64,000 nucleotides of DNA from Hyphomicrobiales bacterium. Its GTDB lineage: Bacteria; Pseudomonadota; Alphaproteobacteria; Rhizobiales; Rhizobiaceae. Made by a program: the position numbers and the translations under genes. Location: assembly GCA_900469965.1 (NCBI GenBank), contig UBZP01000017.1, forward strand, positions 372,001-436,000, in the 5' to 3' direction. This document shows, piece after piece, positions 49,196-56,091 of the stretch. Position 1 is the first letter of the stretch; each line of letters starts with the position of its first letter. Below the pieces are notes generated by a model. The model did no database searches, was not told where the DNA came from, and saw nothing but the letters and a program-made list of their open reading frames with translations.

Positions 49196-49584
49196 GGCAA
49201 GGACTATCGGACACACTCCATCGGCCGGTAGGCGGCGACACCCATCCGACGTGGTCGTCTTGCCGACGGATCCGGCCCATGGGCTCCTTGCGGGTTCATC
49301 GGGGTGCGCATCGCGCACCGGTGATCGCGGCGGTCCCCTTCGTCGTGTGGCGCTTGCATGCCGACAGGAACTGACAAGGCGTTCGCCTTGTTGTAAAACC
49401 ATCGAGGATTGAACCGGGCGGGCAGCATGATCCCGCGCCGCGGCAGCGGATAGCCGGTGTGCCGTGGACGGCATGAGCCTGTCGCATTGCACGGCGATGC
49501 CGTAGCCTGCCTTTCCGTTGCAGTCTGCATCTGGGCGGCATGGCATTCCGCCGGGCGCATCGGGTTCATGGTGGGGGAGGTTCA
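49196..49584. other. Gap without a recognisable gene between minE and the b561 gene
   Basis: 389 bases. Open frames exist on the minus strand, but their composition (runs of Arg, His, Pro) looks like chance GC-rich reading. Nothing suggestive of an RNA gene was found. The right end probably holds the promoter of the cytochrome gene and ends in GGGGGAGG before a TTG start. Confidence 0.4.
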
Positions 49585-50160
49585 TTGTCCAAGATCAGCG
49601 AGACGAGCACCCTGACCCAGGCGACCTGTCCCACCGAGGCGGTGATCCGCGTGGAGCGCTACGCCGCGACGTCCCGCATCCTTCACTGGATCGTGGCGGT
49701 GCTGGTGCTGGCGATCTGGCCGCTCGGCTTCTTCATCAAATTCACGAAGAAAGAGGTGACGCTCGACTTCTACATGGTCCACGAGAGCCTCGGGTTCCTG
49801 GTGCTGTGGATCATGCTGGTGCGGGTCGGCAACAAGCTGCTGGTGAGGGCGCCGCAGCCGGAGGGGCCGGCGATCGAGCGCCTGGTGGCCTCGGTCGTCC
49901 ACGGCCTGCTCTATCTCTTCCTGATCATCATGCCGGTCAGCGGCTTTCTCGCCACGAACGCGCACGGATTTCCGCTTCTCTGGTTCGGCCTCGTTCCGAT
50001 CTGGAGCCCGGTGGGCAAGGCGCCCGACATTGCCTGGACGCTTTCGGCGATCCATGCCTGGAGCGCATGGATCCTTCTGACGCTTTTCGCGTTGCATATC
50101 GGCGGCGTCCTGTTTCATCATGTGATCAGACGCGACAACACCCTATACCGGATGCTCTAG
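49585..50160 (+). CDS. Cytochrome b561-family membrane protein
   Basis: 191 residues from TTG 49585, chosen because GGGGGAGG lies just upstream; ATG 49540 is the alternative. Four membrane helices carry histidines suited to two b-type hemes: SRILHWIVAVLVLAIWPLGF, VHESLGFLVLWIMLV, VVHGLLYLFLIIMPVSGF, and LSAIHAWSAWILL together with LHIGGVLFHHVI. Bacterial members shuttle electrons in the inner membrane, for example oxidising superoxide in E. coli CybB, or serve dehydrogenases. Eight bases separate it from the RibD-like gene downstream. Confidence 0.88.
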   Translation: MSKISETSTLTQATCPTEAVIRVERYAATSRILHWIVAVLVLAIWPLGFFIKFTKKEVTLDFYMVHESLGFLVLWIMLVRVGNKLLVRAPQPEGPAIERLVASVVHGLLYLFLIIMPVSGFLATNAHGFPLLWFGLVPIWSPVGKAPDIAWTLSAIHAWSAWILLTLFALHIGGVLFHHVIRRDNTLYRML

Positions 50161-50168
50161 GGAGCGCG

Positions 50169-50972
50169 ATGTTCAAGTTGGAGATGAGCGATGCGACCTG
50201 GTCGCGACTGCTGGTCCTTCGGCAGGGCGCGGGCGAAGGCGTGCCGACAGAGGCGGCCTATCGCCTCTACGCGCCGATTGCCGGGGCAACCGGTCGATTC
50301 GTGATCGCGCAGGTGGGCCAGTCGCTCGACGGGCGCATCGCGACGCCCACGGGCGATGCCCGCGACGTCTCCGGCCAGGACGGGCTCGCCCATCTGCATC
50401 GATGTCGGGCGCTGGTGGATGCCGTGATCGTCGGCATCGGCACCGTCAGAGCCGACGATCCGAGGCTGTCGGTGAGGATGGTCAAGGGCGCATCGCCGGT
50501 CCGCGTGATCGTCGACTGCCATGCGGAACTGGACGGCAGCGAGAGCCTGTTCCATGACGGCGGGGCGCCCGTGATCGTGTTCAGAAGCGCGCGCGCCAAG
50601 GGCATCGTCCTGCCGGGGGCGGAGGTCATCAGCCTCGAGCCCAAGGCCTGCGGCCTCGACCCGCACGACATCCTCGACGCCCTGGCGCAGCGCAACCTCG
50701 ATCGCGTGCTGGTCGAGGGTGGCGCCCGCACGATCGCGCGCTTCATCGCGGCAGGCCTCGTCGATCGGCTGCATGTGGCCATATCCCCGATCATCATCGG
50801 CTCCGGTCCGAGCGGCATTGCCCTCTCGCCGATCGAGAGCCTGGCCGGGGCCTACCGCCCCGTCACCGAGGTCTACGATCTCGGAAGCGACATCCTGTTC
50901 GACTGCGCGCTGCGGCCGCAACGGGCCTCAGGCCGGCAGGGCCAGGAGATCCGCGTGGCCAACGAGGCCTGA
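50169..50972 (+). CDS. RibD C-terminal (dihydrofolate-reductase-like) family protein
   Basis: 267 residues from ATG 50169 after AGGGAGCG. After an N-terminal extension of about 40 residues comes the RibD_C reductase domain: FVIAQVGQSLDGRIATPTGD, ALVDAVIVGIGTVRADDPRL, VRVIVDCHAELDGSESLFHD and RVLVEGGARTIARFIAAGLV. There is no deaminase domain, so it is not the full riboflavin enzyme RibD. It should reduce an aminopyrimidine- or pterin-like ribosyl compound with NADPH. Its end overlaps the convergent methyltransferase by 45 bases. It belongs functionally with the PTPS-like cluster on the other strand; this is inference. Confidence 0.85.
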   Translation: MFKLEMSDATWSRLLVLRQGAGEGVPTEAAYRLYAPIAGATGRFVIAQVGQSLDGRIATPTGDARDVSGQDGLAHLHRCRALVDAVIVGIGTVRADDPRLSVRMVKGASPVRVIVDCHAELDGSESLFHDGGAPVIVFRSARAKGIVLPGAEVISLEPKACGLDPHDILDALAQRNLDRVLVEGGARTIARFIAAGLVDRLHVAISPIIIGSGPSGIALSPIESLAGAYRPVTEVYDLGSDILFDCALRPQRASGRQGQEIRVANEA

Positions 50973-51722
50973 ACCGCCGGGCGTGCCGATGGCCCCCAGC
51001 CGGTATTCCAGCCAGCCGTCGACCGTCGCCTCAGGCAGGTCCGAGATTTCGAGAAGCGGCCGGCGCAGGCCCTCCAGCAGCTGCGCCTGCAGTTCGGCGC
51101 TCTCCGCATCCAGGTGCCACGGGCTGTCCTCGACCCGCACCGTGAACCCACGCGCGGCAAGATGGCGCGCGAGGCAGACGGCCGCGTCGGGACCGAGCGC
51201 CGGGCCGAACCCCTTGTCCGTGTGCTGGTGGCTGTTGAACAGCGCCACCATCTGCGCATCGAGCGGATGCGACGGCGTCCAGCGCATCGTCCCGTCATAG
51301 TTCAGCGCCGCATAGAGACCGCAGCGCGCCGAGGCGAGCCGGTCGGCGAGCGCGGCGCAGAAGGGCTCGGAGCACAGGTCGAACAGGGCCGAAGCGGTGA
51401 CGACGCCCACGCCCTCCAGCGGCAGGGCGTCGATGTCGTTGAGGTCGTGCCGGCGAAACGTCACCCCGGCATCCCGGCCGATCCGGCGCGCGGCCTCGTC
51501 GAGCAGCAGCGGATCGTTGTCCAGCATCAGCCAGCGCGCGCCGGCGGGCAGCCGGCCGGCGAGGCTGCGCCAGGTGGACCCGGTGCCGCAGCCGATGTCG
51601 AGAACGAGGGGATCGGGCAGGCCGCGGACATAGCTTGCGAGCGCGTCCAGCAGCCCGCCGTGACGGGCGCGGCGATCGGCGGGTTCGCGCAGCGCCAGCC
51701 AGGTCTTGTCGAAGCCGCTCAT
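50928..51722 (-). CDS. Class I SAM-dependent methyltransferase
   Basis: 264 residues from ATG 51722, which overlaps the glycosyltransferase stop (ATGA). SAM motif I is PLVLDIGCGTGSTWRSLAG, the acidic motif II is LMLDNDPLLLDEA, and motif III is near VVTASALFDL. It is the last gene of a four-gene minus-strand operon (dehydrogenase, PTPS-like, glycosyltransferase, methyltransferase). It probably methylates the small-molecule product of the cluster. Its last 45 bases are shared with the convergent RibD-like gene. Confidence 0.85.
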   Translation of the reverse strand: MSGFDKTWLALREPADRRARHGGLLDALASYVRGLPDPLVLDIGCGTGSTWRSLAGRLPAGARWLMLDNDPLLLDEAARRIGRDAGVTFRRHDLNDIDALPLEGVGVVTASALFDLCSEPFCAALADRLASARCGLYAALNYDGTMRWTPSHPLDAQMVALFNSHQHTDKGFGPALGPDAAVCLARHLAARGFTVRVEDSPWHLDAESAELQAQLLEGLRRPLLEISDLPEATVDGWLEYRLGAIGTPGGSGLVGHADLLALPA

Positions 51723-52762
51723 CGCAGCGCCTCCAATGCTTGTGCGATGATCCCCACGGTCACCTCCCAGCCGGGCAGTGACGCCCCGGCGCGCCTTGCG
51801 GCGGCGGCCTTTGTCCGGCGCAGGCTCTTGTCCGCGACCAGGCTCCGCAGCGCGCGGGCGAAGGCGCGCACGTCGTCGACCGGCACCAGCATGCCGGCGT
51901 CCTCCGGCACGACCTCGGGAACGGCGCCCGCCCGGCAGGCGACGATCGGCAGTCCTTGCGAAAGGGCTTCGGCGAAGACCATGCCATACCCTTCGAAGCG
52001 GCTCGCAAGCGCGAAGACATCGGCGTCCGCCAGCAGCGCGCGGGTGTCCTCGCTTTCGCCGGCAAGCGATATCCGTTCCGCAAGGCCGAGTCTTTCCACC
52101 TGCTTTTCCAGAGCGGCGGCGGTTTGCGGATCGAGCCCGTGACTGCCGACGATCGTCGCCCGCCACGGCAGATCTTCGATCTCCTTCAGGGCGGCGACGA
52201 GCACGTCGTGCCCCTTGCGCGGGGTGAGCGTGCCGATGGAGAGGATATGCGCCGGGTCGCCCTCGCAGGTGGCCATCCGGGCCGGATCGGTGCCCGGGAC
52301 GGCGACCACAAGCCGGTCGGGGCGGACATCGTAGTGTGCGGCGAGCGCGCGCGCGGTCATGGCCGACGTGACGATGACGCGTCTGGCGAAGGACAGCGCG
52401 CGGCGCTCGCTGTCCTCGAACCGGCGCTGCTGGCCGGTGTCGAGCCCGGTCTCGAGCGCCAGCGGATGATGGACGAGCGCAACGATGCGCAGGCGCCGGG
52501 CTTCCCGCTCCGCCCACCGGTCCAACACGCCGAAGGCCAGGCCGTCGACCACGAGCAGCCCGCCGTCGGGCAGTTGCGACAGCCGGCGCTCGGCCTCCTC
52601 CTTGACCTCCGGCGTGGGAAAGGGAAAGCCTTCGCCGAGCGGCAGGCACGCGACCGACCAGTTGCGGTCGGCAAGCCCGGCGATGACCCGGCGATCATAG
52701 GCATAGCCGCCGGTGTTCAGGGCCAGGTCGCCGGGAAAGGCGAAGGTGACATGACGGCTCAA
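51719..52762 (-). CDS. Glycosyltransferase family 4 protein
   Basis: 347 residues, GT-B fold. The C-terminal nucleotide-sugar domain has SIGTLTPRKGHDVLVAALKE and the catalytic/nucleotide region SRFEGYGMVFAEALSQGLPI. The N-terminal acceptor domain begins VTFAFPGDLALNTGGYAYDR. It has no membrane helix. Its start overlaps the PTPS-like stop and its stop overlaps the methyltransferase start, so the three are tightly coupled. Likely reaction: transfer of a sugar to the pterin-like product; this is inference from context. Confidence 0.87.
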   Translation of the reverse strand: MSRHVTFAFPGDLALNTGGYAYDRRVIAGLADRNWSVACLPLGEGFPFPTPEVKEEAERRLSQLPDGGLLVVDGLAFGVLDRWAEREARRLRIVALVHHPLALETGLDTGQQRRFEDSERRALSFARRVIVTSAMTARALAAHYDVRPDRLVVAVPGTDPARMATCEGDPAHILSIGTLTPRKGHDVLVAALKEIEDLPWRATIVGSHGLDPQTAAALEKQVERLGLAERISLAGESEDTRALLADADVFALASRFEGYGMVFAEALSQGLPIVACRAGAVPEVVPEDAGMLVPVDDVRAFARALRSLVADKSLRRTKAAAARRAGASLPGWEVTVGIIAQALEALR

Positions 52763-53157
52763 AGGTCGGCCTCGTACCAGCCGCGGGCGGCATGCGATTC
52801 GTGAAGGGTCACCTTCAGCCGGCAGATCCGGTGGCTGCCCGGACCGAGCTTCTTCTCCGCTACGGCAGCCGCGAGCGCGTCGAAGATATGCTTGGCGATG
52901 ACTTCCGTCGTCGTGACCTTGCCGGCGAAGACCGGGAGCGTGTCGAGGTTCTGATAGTTCAGCGGCTGCAGCACCTCGCCCAACACCGTCGTCGCCGCCC
53001 CGATATCGACCGCCAATCCGTCCTCGTCGAGATCGCGCGTGAAGAAGGCGGCGTCGACCACGAAGGTGGCACCGTGCATGCCCTGGGCGGGACCGAAGAC
53101 CGGGCGGGGAAGGCTGTGGGCGATCATGATGTGATCGCGGACTTCTACGGCGAACAT
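52759..53157 (-). CDS. 6-pyruvoyl-tetrahydropterin synthase/QueD-family protein with altered active site
   Basis: 132 residues from ATG 53157, after GGAAGAGA. The fold motifs are those of PTPS/QueD: IMIAHSLPRPVFGPAQGMHG, DEDGLAVDIGAATTVLGEVL, LNYQNLDTLPVF and the substrate-binding Glu in LKVTLHESHAARGWYEA. However, the usual Cys-x3-His-Gly-His site reads with Gln in place of Cys (AQGMHG) and Ala in place of the last zinc-binding His. Normal QueD or PTPS chemistry is therefore doubtful. It is coupled to a glycosyltransferase gene and preceded by a dehydrogenase. Confidence 0.83.
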   Translation of the reverse strand: MFAVEVRDHIMIAHSLPRPVFGPAQGMHGATFVVDAAFFTRDLDEDGLAVDIGAATTVLGEVLQPLNYQNLDTLPVFAGKVTTTEVIAKHIFDALAAAVAEKKLGPGSHRICRLKVTLHESHAARGWYEADL

Positions 53158-53164
53158 TCTCTTC

Positions 53165-54172
53165 CTACTCCGTGTAGCGGATACGATGGCAAAGGGTTTC
53201 GGCATCGGCAAGGATCGCCGGATAGGCGGCGGCGAGGTCGGCGAAGCGGGTCTCGCCGGAAATCAGCCTGTCGAGGCGGTCGTCGCACAAAAGCTCCAGC
53301 GCCTTTTCGAGCCGTCGGGCATGGGGCCAGCGCGCCCGCCGCGCCGGCGGCAGCGAACCGACCTGGGAACTGGCGATGGTCAGCCTGCGGGCGTGAAAGG
53401 CGCCGCCGAGCGGCAGGCTGACGGAGCGGTCGCCATACCAGCTCGCCTCGACGATGCGGGCTTCCTGTCCAGCGAGTTCGATGGCTCTCGACAGCGCTTC
53501 GGCCGAGCCGGAGGCGTTGACGAGCACGTCGAACGGGCCCGCCGCCGTCTCCCCGGTCGCAAAGCCGAGGCCGAGTGCTGTCGCCAGCGTCCGCCGGGCC
53601 GGATTGCGGTCGATCAGCAGGACGTCGGTGCCGATGATCCCCGCGGCGAGATGGGCGACAAGGGCGCCGACGACGCCGGCCCCGAACACGGCGACCCGGT
53701 CCCCCGGCAGGATATCGGCGTCCCAGACGATGTTCAGCGCGGTCTCCATGTTCGCCGCCAGCACGGCGCGTGCAGGGGGCAGTCCCTCGGGCAGCGGCGT
53801 CACCGCGTCCGCGGCGACGGTGAAGACATCCTGATGCGGGTGGAGGCAGAACACCGTGCGGCCGGCAAGCGATGGGTGGCCCTGCTCGACCCGGCCCACG
53901 GCCGAATAGCCGTATTTCACCGGAAACGGAAAATCCCCGCCCATATGGGGGCCACGCATGCGCTCGAACTCGCTCACCGGGACGCGGCCGTGGAAGACGA
54001 GGTTCTCCGTGCCGCGGCTGATGCCGCTGAACAGCATGCGCACCCGCACCCGGCCATCCCCCGGCGGAGGCAGCGGCTGCTCGCGGATCTCGCAAATGCC
54101 GGCCGCCGGAATCCACAGGGCACGGGCGCTGGCGGCGCCTGCCATTCCGGCTGTGCCGGTGTCCGGTTTCAT
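53165..54172 (-). CDS. Medium-chain dehydrogenase, zinc-alcohol-dehydrogenase-like
   Basis: 335 residues. The N-terminal GroES-like domain has MLFSGISRGTENLVFHGRVP, where the usual zinc Cys is replaced by a Ser (ISRGTE motif, as in BchC-type proteins). The C-terminal Rossmann motif is VAVFGAGVVGALVAHLAAG. It lacks a structural four-cysteine lobe, so zinc binding is doubtful. It heads the minus-strand operon, 7 bases ahead of the PTPS-like gene. It should oxidise or reduce a side-chain alcohol or ketone of the pathway intermediate. Confidence 0.85.
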   Translation of the reverse strand: MKPDTGTAGMAGAASARALWIPAAGICEIREQPLPPPGDGRVRVRMLFSGISRGTENLVFHGRVPVSEFERMRGPHMGGDFPFPVKYGYSAVGRVEQGHPSLAGRTVFCLHPHQDVFTVAADAVTPLPEGLPPARAVLAANMETALNIVWDADILPGDRVAVFGAGVVGALVAHLAAGIIGTDVLLIDRNPARRTLATALGLGFATGETAAGPFDVLVNASGSAEALSRAIELAGQEARIVEASWYGDRSVSLPLGGAFHARRLTIASSQVGSLPPARRARWPHARRLEKALELLCDDRLDRLISGETRFADLAAAYPAILADAETLCHRIRYTE

Positions 54173-54562: not shown

Positions 54563-55342
54563 ATGCTGTTGGAGGAGACACCGGTCCTGCAGGGGCGCGT
54601 TGCGGAAGGTGCGCCGTCGCGAGCGCTGCGGGCCAATGCGCTGACCGTGCTCGGCTGTGTCTTCGCCGCTGCCGTCGCCGCCTATATGCTTGTCGCCTAC
54701 CACCTGCCGCTCGGCGGTGGCGTCGTCATGGCAGCGGCGGTGCTGCTCCTGTTCATCTTCGCGCTCGTCCTCAGGGGCCTGCAGCATCACGGACACCAGC
54801 GCTTCGGCCTCGCCAACACCGTGACGGCGGTCCGGGCCGCATTGGTCAGCATCATCGCTGCGGCCGTGTTCTATCCGGGTGCAGCGCAGAACATCGCGGA
54901 TGCGCCGTGGATCTTTGTGGCCCTCGTGCTCGTGGCGCTGGTGCTGGATGGCGTCGACGGGTTTGTGGCACGTCGCGAGGCACAGGTGTCCGCGCTGGGG
55001 GCACGCTTCGACATGGAGGTCGACGCGCTGCTGATCCTCTGCCTCTCCACCGCCGCCTTTCTGCTGGGCAAGGCAGGCGCATGGGTCCTGCTCATCGGGC
55101 TGATGCGCTACGCATTCCTGCTCCTGCACTATCCCGTGCCGCGTCTTGCGGGCGCGCTGCCGCCATCGCTGCGGCGCAAGTTCGTCTGCGTGGTGCAGGT
55201 CGCGGTCCTGTGCCTGATCCTGGTGCCCGCTATCGTCCAGCCGGTCTCGTCTTGGCTTGCGGCGATCGCACTGCTTCTGCTTTGCCATTCCTTTGCGGTG
55301 GACTGCTTCTATCTCCTGACCAAGGCCGAGGTGCGGGAATGA
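54563..55342 (+). CDS. CDP-alcohol phosphatidyltransferase family membrane protein
   Basis: 259 residues with about six membrane helices. The catalytic CDP-alcohol motif DG-x2-AR-x8-G-x3-D-x3-D is complete in DGFVARREAQVSALGARF followed by DMEVD (near residue 132). The enzyme transfers a phospho-group from a CDP-activated lipid or alcohol to an alcohol acceptor, as in phosphatidylglycerol or inositol-phosphate lipid synthesis. The acceptor is unknown. Its stop overlaps the FkbM methyltransferase start (ATGA), pointing to modification of the same product. Confidence 0.88.
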   Translation: MLLEETPVLQGRVAEGAPSRALRANALTVLGCVFAAAVAAYMLVAYHLPLGGGVVMAAAVLLLFIFALVLRGLQHHGHQRFGLANTVTAVRAALVSIIAAAVFYPGAAQNIADAPWIFVALVLVALVLDGVDGFVARREAQVSALGARFDMEVDALLILCLSTAAFLLGKAGAWVLLIGLMRYAFLLLHYPVPRLAGALPPSLRRKFVCVVQVAVLCLILVPAIVQPVSSWLAAIALLLLCHSFAVDCFYLLTKAEVRE

Positions 55343-56091
55343 ATGTCCTGTCCAGCGTCGACACGGCGATCGGCGTCACGCGGTCGATGCTGATCTACTA
55401 TGGCCAGCCGTGGCGCCGCCGGCAGCTCAGGCGCTTCTATCGCGAACTGGTCTCGCCCGGCGACCTCGTGTTCGACATCGGCGCCCATGTCGGCAGCCGC
55501 AGCCGGACGTTGATTTCGCTCGGCGCCGCGGTGGTGGCGGTGGAGCCGCAGCCGGTCTTCGCCGACATCGTCGCGATGCACCTTTCCAGACAGTTGAAGG
55601 GCCTCGAACGCGTGGCTGTCGGGGCCGCCGAGGGCGAGGCGACGCTTCATGTCTCGAGCCGCCATCCGACGGTCACGACCCTATCGAAACGCTTCATCGA
55701 CGGTGTCAGCCACAGCGCCGGCTTTCGGGATGTGGTCTGGGACAGCGAGATCCGGCTGCCGGTGACCACGCTGGACCGGCTGATCGACAAATACGGTCTG
55801 CCCGCCTTCTGCAAGATCGACGTCGAGGGCGCGGAAAGCGACATCTTGCGCGGCCTTTCCAGGCCGATCCGGCTCATCGCCTTCGAATATATCCCCGCCC
55901 TGCCGGACGTGGCGCGCGAGTCAGTCGACCGGCTCGGGCAACTCGGACCCTATCGCTTCAAGCGCGTCATCGGCGAGACCCACCGCTTCGTCGATGCCGA
56001 GTGGAAGGATGCGGCCGCGCTGTCGGCCGACCTTGCCACGCTTTCGCCGGACAGCCCGTCAGGCGACATCTACGCCCGCCTGGCGCCGTGA
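55339..56091 (+). CDS. FkbM-family SAM-dependent methyltransferase
   Basis: 250 residues from ATG 55339. SAM motif VFDIGAHVGSRSRTLISLGA, then VVAVEPQP and the FkbM hallmark FCKIDVEGAESDILRGL. FkbM enzymes O-methylate sugars, polyketides or lipid headgroups. It is translationally coupled to the CDP-alcohol phosphatidyltransferase and followed by a sulfatase-fold membrane protein, so an envelope lipid or polymer is the likely substrate; this is inference. Confidence 0.88.
   Translation: MNVLSSVDTAIGVTRSMLIYYGQPWRRRQLRRFYRELVSPGDLVFDIGAHVGSRSRTLISLGAAVVAVEPQPVFADIVAMHLSRQLKGLERVAVGAAEGEATLHVSSRHPTVTTLSKRFIDGVSHSAGFRDVVWDSEIRLPVTTLDRLIDKYGLPAFCKIDVEGAESDILRGLSRPIRLIAFEYIPALPDVARESVDRLGQLGPYRFKRVIGETHRFVDAEWKDAAALSADLATLSPDSPSGDIYARLAP

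Follow-up and report, generated by a model that had tools for sequence, protein, structure and literature searches.

A conserved gene set around a degenerate PTPS-fold protein in a Hyphomicrobiales genome and its possible role in making a decorated pyrimidine or pterin from GTP

We report that five genes at positions 50169 to 54172 of a 64,000-nucleotide stretch of DNA from a Hyphomicrobiales bacterium (hereafter the window; assembly GCA_900469965.1, contig UBZP01000017.1, positions 372,001 to 436,000) form a real and widely conserved operon. These genes encode a RibD_C protein, a methyltransferase, a glycosyltransferase, a degenerate PTPS-fold protein and a dehydrogenase. Judged from gene content and residue conservation, we favour, with some reserve, the view that the operon makes a glycosylated and methylated pyrimidine or pterin from GTP via GTP cyclohydrolase II (GCHII). 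An initial annotation of the locus, which had proposed an undescribed pathway to a decorated pterin-like cofactor or signal, was largely right on the kind of pathway; the entry point and the wider set of partners are new.

Gene organisation of the locus

The five genes are:

50169-50972, plus strand: stand-alone RibD_C protein (pyrimidine reductase-type) of 267 aa without a deaminase domain; Pfam RibD_C, 145.7 bits, the sole family matched
50928-51722, minus strand: class I S-adenosylmethionine-dependent methyltransferase of 264 aa; Pfam Methyltransf_25, 39.7 bits
51719-52762, minus strand: GT4-family glycosyltransferase with a TTG start; Pfam Glyco_trans_1_4, 105.7 bits
52759-53157, minus strand: PTPS-fold protein of 132 aa, SCO6650 (3D7J) subfamily, with AQxxHGA replacing CxxxHGH; Pfam PTPS, 72.6 bits
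53165-54172, minus strand: medium-chain dehydrogenase, BchC-like; ADH_zinc_N, 26.5 bits (below cut-off), and NCBIfam BchC, 57.7 bits (far below cut-off)

All five frames are open, and the coordinates and identities first assigned to them are correct. The minus-strand genes had been described as overlapping or nearly touching, and this holds: the methyltransferase and glycosyltransferase genes overlap by 4 bases, as do the glycosyltransferase and PTPS genes, and 7 bases separate the PTPS gene from the dehydrogenase gene. Likewise, the RibD_C gene converges on the methyltransferase gene with a shared stretch of 45 bases (50928-50972). The PTPS gene starts with an ATG after a Shine-Dalgarno-like AGGAAG; a longer frame extends to 53211.

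Conservation of the gene set

Relatives were searched for with the PTPS protein as query (E 0.001) in samples of genomes from the order (40 of 150 matched, of which 39, counting the window's own, did so strongly), the class (47 of 385, 45 strong) and the phylum (78 of 398, 27 strong), some genomes being shared between the samples. From these we compiled 99 diverse loci: 37 from the order, where 38 strong genomes besides the window's own were available, all 43 strong ones from the class beyond the order, and 19 further strong ones from the phylum sample; the partial match in G083 was omitted, 20 of the loci are shorter than 19 kb and 11 come from outside the class. A scan of named genomes with the same query gave at least 514 relatives, of which the best 80, mostly with Rhizobiales names, were retained and joined with 39 order-sample loci and the window into a 120-locus set that is biased to Rhizobiaceae. 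Two of these order-sample loci (L134 and L135) stem from weak matches and do not represent the module, and the counts for this set come from mechanical clustering, e.g. the glycosyltransferase count includes one of the two. The hidden Markov models for the families were built from the Rhizobiales-rich set and distant members may escape them. Controls were drawn from 20 order genomes, each contributing a single 19.9-kb stretch from a distant place.

Among the 99 diverse loci the PTPS family was found in 99, the dehydrogenase in 98, the glycosyltransferase in 96, the methyltransferase as a separate gene in 84 and the RibD-like protein in 72. Of the 11 loci that lie beyond the class, 6 have the glycosyltransferase and methyltransferase fused into a single protein; with fusions counted, the methyltransferase is present in 90 loci and the full four-gene core in 88. 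The dehydrogenase is the neighbour of the PTPS gene among scored families in 93 loci, and the order dehydrogenase-PTPS-glycosyltransferase-methyltransferase without an intervening scored family occurs in 75 of the 99. The RibD gene lies at a median distance of 1.9 kb from the PTPS gene in the 72 loci, across classes. The controls gave 0-1 of 20, their sole matches being a weak dehydrogenase (59 bits) and a cytochrome b561 (99 bits). Since the gene set is found again beyond the class and among actinobacteria, and the controls are almost empty, it is not a chance arrangement, and the idea that these genes form one conserved unit is thereby borne out.

Several further families recur in the diverse loci: an MdoH-like glycosyltransferase (46), GCHII (41), cytochrome b561 (31), CDP-alcohol phosphatidyltransferase (29), FkbM methyltransferase (27), creatininase (15), a lysylphosphatidylglycerol (LPG)-synthase-TM protein (13) and a sulfatase-like protein (11). 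The corresponding numbers in the 120-locus set are glycosyltransferase 119, dehydrogenase 117, methyltransferase 113, PTPS 110, RibD 91, sulfatase-like 75, CDP-alcohol transferase 73, cytochrome b561 70, GCHII 69, LPG-synthase-TM 64, FkbM 55 and MdoH-like GT2 28.

The seven-gene set GCHII, RibD, methyltransferase, glycosyltransferase, PTPS, dehydrogenase and creatininase is present in three small genomes (1.4, 1.4 and 1.6 Mb; completeness 94-96%) with identical relative order and orientation and with no other scored family; gene-by-gene maps of two of them (G+C 0.28 and 0.26) show the seven in an unbroken row. That streamlined genomes keep the set leads us to infer a general role of its product. 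Kept in alphaproteobacteria, at least one other proteobacterial class, actinobacteria and these three small genomes, the set probably yields a metabolite of general function.

A search of 72,556 plasmid records gave matches in 20. The Streptomyces fungicidicus plasmid carries the CDP-alcohol transferase, dehydrogenase, PTPS, glycosyltransferase, methyltransferase, creatininase and GCHII genes together with an unannotated LPG-synthase-TM frame; a Microbacterium plasmid has the CDP-alcohol transferase, dehydrogenase, PTPS, glycosyltransferase, methyltransferase, LPG-synthase-TM and RibD genes, and a plasmid of the gammaproteobacterium Thiodictyon the dehydrogenase, PTPS, glycosyltransferase, methyltransferase, cytochrome b, RibD and CDP-alcohol transferase genes. 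The cluster is also on annotated plasmids of Methylosinus and Peteryoungia. Its presence is patchy, since a phylum-sample genome of the window's own genus (G794) has no PTPS match, and horizontal transfer of the cluster is likely.

The PTPS-fold protein

In an alignment of 190 sequences, position 24 is Ala (frequency 1.00), position 30 Ala (1.00) and position 120 Glu (1.00), with Gln at position 25 and His at position 28. We take position 24 to be the catalytic Cys in QueD, position 30 a zinc His, the Glu at position 120 the pterin-ring anchor and an Asp-His pair the catalytic dyad. Aligned to a canonical QueD (from L135) and to E. coli QueD structures, the CxxxHGH of QueD reads AxxxHGA in the window's protein and Asp-His reads Asn-Tyr. 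Hence the Cys and His of catalysis and one of the zinc-binding His residues are replaced and the anchoring Glu is kept, in agreement with the earlier label of a degenerate PTPS. On these residues the protein probably holds no zinc, and a role as catalytic PTPS or as QueD is very unlikely; its score against NCBIfam TIGR03367 (QueD) is 31.4 bits, the cut-off being 89.25.

The protein belongs to the subfamily of SCO6650 from Streptomyces coelicolor (3D7J), as judged from a close sequence match (E 5e-39), the common AQxxHGA motif and the fold: a predicted model (mean pLDDT 90.5) matches 3D7J at TM 0.93 with 56% identity, and among the matches listed the next PTPS/QueD structures reach TM 0.64-0.77. 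SCO6650 reportedly lacks zinc and the catalytic triad (Spoonamore and Bandarian), and its gene is likewise reported to lie near that of an unusual GCHII, SCO6655. According to an excerpt of PMC5041015, PTPS-V is a COG0720 subfamily the function of which is called unclear.

Entry into the pathway

The best solved matches of the RibD-like protein are 6p8c, named 2,5-diamino-6-ribosylamino-4(3H)-pyrimidinone 5'-phosphate (DARoPP) reductase, and 2azn, both of which we take to be archaeal; Rv2671 is also among its solved relatives. The motifs QSLDG, DxPxLxxR and EGG are conserved at 0.96-1.00 in 148 sequences. The stand-alone RibD_C domain and the intact motifs agree with an archaeal-type DARoPP reductase; the score against NCBIfam TIGR01508, which describes this type, is 120.4 bits and thus under the cut-off of 186.45.

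The initial annotation had advised looking for GTP cyclohydrolase and creatininase-like neighbours in relatives, and both were found, the linked cyclohydrolase being of type II. GCHII is near the PTPS gene in 41 of the 99 loci, 40 of which also have RibD, and creatininase in 15, all with RibD; GTP cyclohydrolase I of type IA (FolE) is near it in one (FolE2 was not searched for). The cluster-linked GCHII proteins above 120 bits all have the C-x(9-12)-CxC zinc pattern (88 of 88 sequences), and the catalytic residue is Tyr in 73 of these and Phe in the other 15. Whether creatininase goes with loss of this Tyr was also considered; there is no link, the 8 loci with both genes having, after realignment, 5 Tyr and 3 Phe.

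As given in an excerpt of PMC9478397, the creatininase-family protein BrbF of Sinorhizobium meliloti deformylates a GCHII-type intermediate to DARoPP and serves riboflavin, and the GTP-opening enzyme of BrbF-bearing bacteria is left to be found. The cluster-linked creatininases are homologous to the single creatininase of the window's genome (E 7e-24 to 6e-53), which may thus be its BrbF.

Since GCHII and creatininase co-occur with RibD, FolE is rare and the RibD-like protein is nearest to DARoPP-type reductases, an entry from GTP to DARoPP and on to the RibD step is the best-supported one on present sequence data.

Proposed pathway

In the pathway that we propose, GTP would be opened by GCHII, encoded within the cluster in many relatives and elsewhere in the cell in the window's genome, so that the source of DARoPP in the latter would lie outside the locus. 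Where the cyclohydrolase halts at the formyl stage, the creatininase-family deformylase would act to give DARoPP. The stand-alone RibD-type reductase might then act on DARoPP or a later intermediate, and the degenerate PTPS-fold protein could use its conserved Glu to hold the 2-amino-4-oxo-pyrimidine ring and, together with the dehydrogenase, bring about the following change in ring or side chain. Finally, glycosylation by the GT4 enzyme and methylation by the methyltransferase would take place. The usual catalytic-zinc Cys and His ligands were not seen, by eye, among the conserved residues of the dehydrogenase. The substrates, the order of steps and the product as a decorated pyrimidine or pterin are putative; gene content, order and conservation, the fusion of glycosyltransferase and methyltransferase, and the loss of catalytic residues in the PTPS-fold protein were directly observed. 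GTP-derived chemistry followed by glycosyl and methyl transfer, as suggested at the outset, appears likeliest, and the linkage of GCHII, creatininase and RibD agrees with it.

Several observations weigh against this proposal. RibD was not seen in 27 of the 99 loci (8 of these stretches are shorter than 19 kb) and GCHII not in 58, and of the 41 matches to GCHII three score low (67-182 bits). The window's cluster has no GCHII, and the only PF00925 protein of its genome is a RibB fusion, the GCHII domain of which lacks, by eye, the zinc cysteines; as a consequence, GCHII activity, the first riboflavin step, lacks an assigned enzyme in this genome. The cluster of Streptomyces fungicidicus has no RibD within 12 kb, and in an unannotated Arthrobacter record only the dehydrogenase, PTPS and glycosyltransferase were recognised. 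Two Rhodobacterales records have a PfkB kinase, with the glycosyltransferase about 4 kb off in one and not found in the other. Moreover, in two Streptomyces plasmids (L186 and L187) the PTPS gene occurs without the cluster and has MEKHLA, cupin and MBL-fold genes as neighbours, possibly a second use of the fold.

The RibB fusion itself is at L233:1812-2912 (G000:C22:27329-27784), in a genome scored as 100% complete.

A more specific form of the pathway, which we put forward as speculative and improbable as it stands, is a pterin route independent of GTP cyclohydrolase I that ends in a lipid-anchored membrane redox cofactor. Here the RibD-like enzyme would reduce DARoPP to the ribitylamine and the BchC-like dehydrogenase would oxidise the ribityl C2' hydroxyl to a ketone, identical to the 1-deoxy-ribulosyl intermediate of cyclohydrolase I (Amadori rearrangement). 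The degenerate PTPS-fold protein would close the ring to a dihydropterin, to be decorated by the glycosyltransferase and methyltransferase; in many lineages the CDP-alcohol phosphatidyltransferase might anchor the product to lipid, and cytochrome b561 could exchange electrons with it. If true, this would be a new membrane redox cofactor with a soluble core pathway retained even in very small genomes. BchC is known to convert a secondary alcohol to a ketone.

Alternative explanations

One alternative has GTP cyclohydrolase I as its entry: the dihydroneopterin (tri)phosphate made by FolE would be modified by the PTPS-like protein and the dehydrogenase, the RibD-like protein would be a dihydropterin reductase and the glycosyltransferase would give a pterin glycoside. 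The window's genome does have FolE, the PTPS fold and its anchoring Glu are retained, and Rv2671, the solved relative of the RibD-like protein noted above, can act as a dihydrofolate reductase; cyanobacteria have pterin glucosyltransferases. Nevertheless, the single locus with FolE contrasts with the 41 with GCHII, the replaced Cys and His residues of the PTPS-fold protein are those of catalysis and zinc binding, and genes of the short-chain dehydrogenase/reductase family, to which sepiapterin reductase belongs, occur in 15 of the 120 and 8 of the 99 loci and are not core. We therefore set FolE-linked synthesis aside as unlikely, the neighbourhood search having covered type IA FolE.

Alternatively, two unrelated functions might adjoin, GCHII, creatininase and RibD being spare riboflavin genes and the dehydrogenase, PTPS, glycosyltransferase and methyltransferase making something else. 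The GCHII and RibD folds are of the riboflavin type, RibD is on the PTPS strand in only 14 of 72 loci, and BrbF serves riboflavin in S. meliloti (excerpt of PMC9478397). What makes this reading distinctly doubtful is the closeness of RibD to PTPS across classes, along with its overlap with the methyltransferase gene in the window; furthermore, lumazine and riboflavin synthase genes are absent from seven annotated cluster records, the gene tables of which are incomplete, and the window's genome has three other RibD_C matches, two of them in frames of more than 400 aa.

A cell-envelope or anti-phage module built from borrowed enzyme folds is harder still to defend. It would fit the recurrence of envelope-type neighbours (the MdoH-like, CDP-alcohol transferase and FkbM families counted above), the patchy and partly plasmid-borne occurrence of the cluster, and a match of the glycosyltransferase to PF20706 ("GT4-conflict") above cut-off, albeit more weakly than to general glycosyltransferase families. 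The stretches with the seven-gene set, on the other hand, hold none of the scored envelope families. Anti-phage defence was rejected, as PADLOC run on nine proteins gave one weak match, of the methyltransferase to mad2, and nothing more.

That the PTPS-fold protein is simply the QueD of its genome, with a role in queuosine or 7-deazaguanine synthesis, is hardly credible: it is the only PF01242 protein there, and the module PTPS is the sole one in 8 of 19 QueC-bearing module genomes (the other 11 hold a second PF01242 protein), but the residues of QueD are lost, 20 of the 39 order-sample module genomes, the window's included, have no QueC match at E 1e-30 or better (none better than E 1.5e-4 in the window's genome), and six order-sample genomes outside the module have QueC with zero PF01242 matches, so that absence of QueD is not tied to the module. 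The remark in the initial annotation that 7-deazaguanine synthesis is improbable is thus well founded.

The six genomes with QueC and no PF01242 match are G042, G046, G121, G134 (78% complete), G136 and G147; QueD is absent or replaced in some of these bacteria, which is a puzzle separate from the module.

Neighbouring genes and further observations

The conserved neighbourhood exceeds 50169-54172, and all of the following flanking genes recur in relatives:

49540-50160, plus strand: cytochrome b561-family membrane protein; Ni_hydr_CYTB, 95.7 bits
54563-55342, plus strand: CDP-alcohol phosphatidyltransferase, divergent from the dehydrogenase; PF01066, 64.1 bits, DGxxAR...GxxxDxxxD read by eye
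55339-56091, plus strand: FkbM-family methyltransferase, associated, ATG at 55339; PF05050, 56.2 bits
56199-57851, plus strand: membrane sulfatase-like protein, associated; homologue annotated "sulfatase" in Peteryoungia

The cytochrome b561 gene, one of two matches in the genome, stops 8 bases upstream of the RibD_C gene on the same strand, and the two may be co-transcribed. Pfam, NCBIfam and PDB sequence searches with the sulfatase-like protein gave zero matches.

Envelope-type partners vary by lineage, with the MdoH-like protein in 30 of 37 order loci and, outside the class, the CDP-alcohol transferase in 11 of 11 and the LPG-synthase-TM protein in 10 of 11; the Microbacterium cluster carries both of the latter. 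This difference between lineages points to export or anchoring of the product in some of them and to neither in the smallest genomes.

A scan of the 99 loci for further recurrent neighbours gave a YceI-like family (12), a secreted-looking uncharacterised protein (11), generic genes and out-of-frame artefacts. The YceI-like periplasmic protein, named by eye, is at L161:6556-7260 and near the clusters of 11 further diverse loci; YceI is often found together with cytochrome b561. Two genomes belonging to one family have a VOC/glyoxalase-family gene inserted between the dehydrogenase and PTPS genes (L123:9393-9851 and L126:9445-9906). Rhizobium sp. PDO1-076 has the cluster on two contigs (L027 and L045), with PTPS proteins 89% and 87% identical to the window's, which would fit either duplication of the cluster or an assembly of mixed origin. 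L019, a contig assigned to an Arenimonas metagenome-assembled genome, has a cluster that ranks among the nearest to that of the window (sulfatase-like protein, 919 bits) and is possibly mis-binned.

Comparison with known systems

We found no title or abstract start describing the gene set in the open-licence literature, which is weak evidence of absence; the word "undescribed" calls for caution, as SCO6650, of the same PTPS subfamily, has been in PDB since 2008. Annotated cluster records label the PTPS-fold protein "6-carboxytetrahydropterin synthase" with a queuosine GO term, and a revised assignment could correct many annotations, given the at least 514 relatives seen in one scan. With the seven-gene set defined, its product becomes open to direct test.

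The set shares a PTPS-fold protein and a glycosyltransferase with cyanobacterial pterin glycoside synthesis, which differs in using GTP cyclohydrolase I and a catalytically complete PTPS; to our knowledge the combination of RibD, BchC-like dehydrogenase and methyltransferase does not occur there. BchC of chlorophyll synthesis is the best NCBIfam match of the dehydrogenase, although the score is far below the curated cut-off of 291.25 and the dehydrogenase is here a partner of PTPS. With QueD (PTPS-I, 6-carboxytetrahydropterin synthase) the window's protein has in common the T-fold and, in the same columns, two zinc His and the anchoring Glu; it differs in lacking the Cys, the third zinc His and the catalytic His, in often occurring without QueC and in being 19-22% identical to E. 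coli QueD (model search). The entry of archaeal and bacterial riboflavin synthesis (GTP cyclohydrolase II or III, ArfB/BrbF formamidase and pyrimidine reductase) resembles the cluster in that GCHII, a creatininase-family protein and a stand-alone RibD recur in it, whereas here the dehydrogenase, PTPS-like protein, glycosyltransferase and methyltransferase come after, and no lumazine or riboflavin synthase was seen. Finally, the nearest relative of known structure is SCO6650, its entry still titled "uncharacterized", to which the proposed pathway would assign a function.

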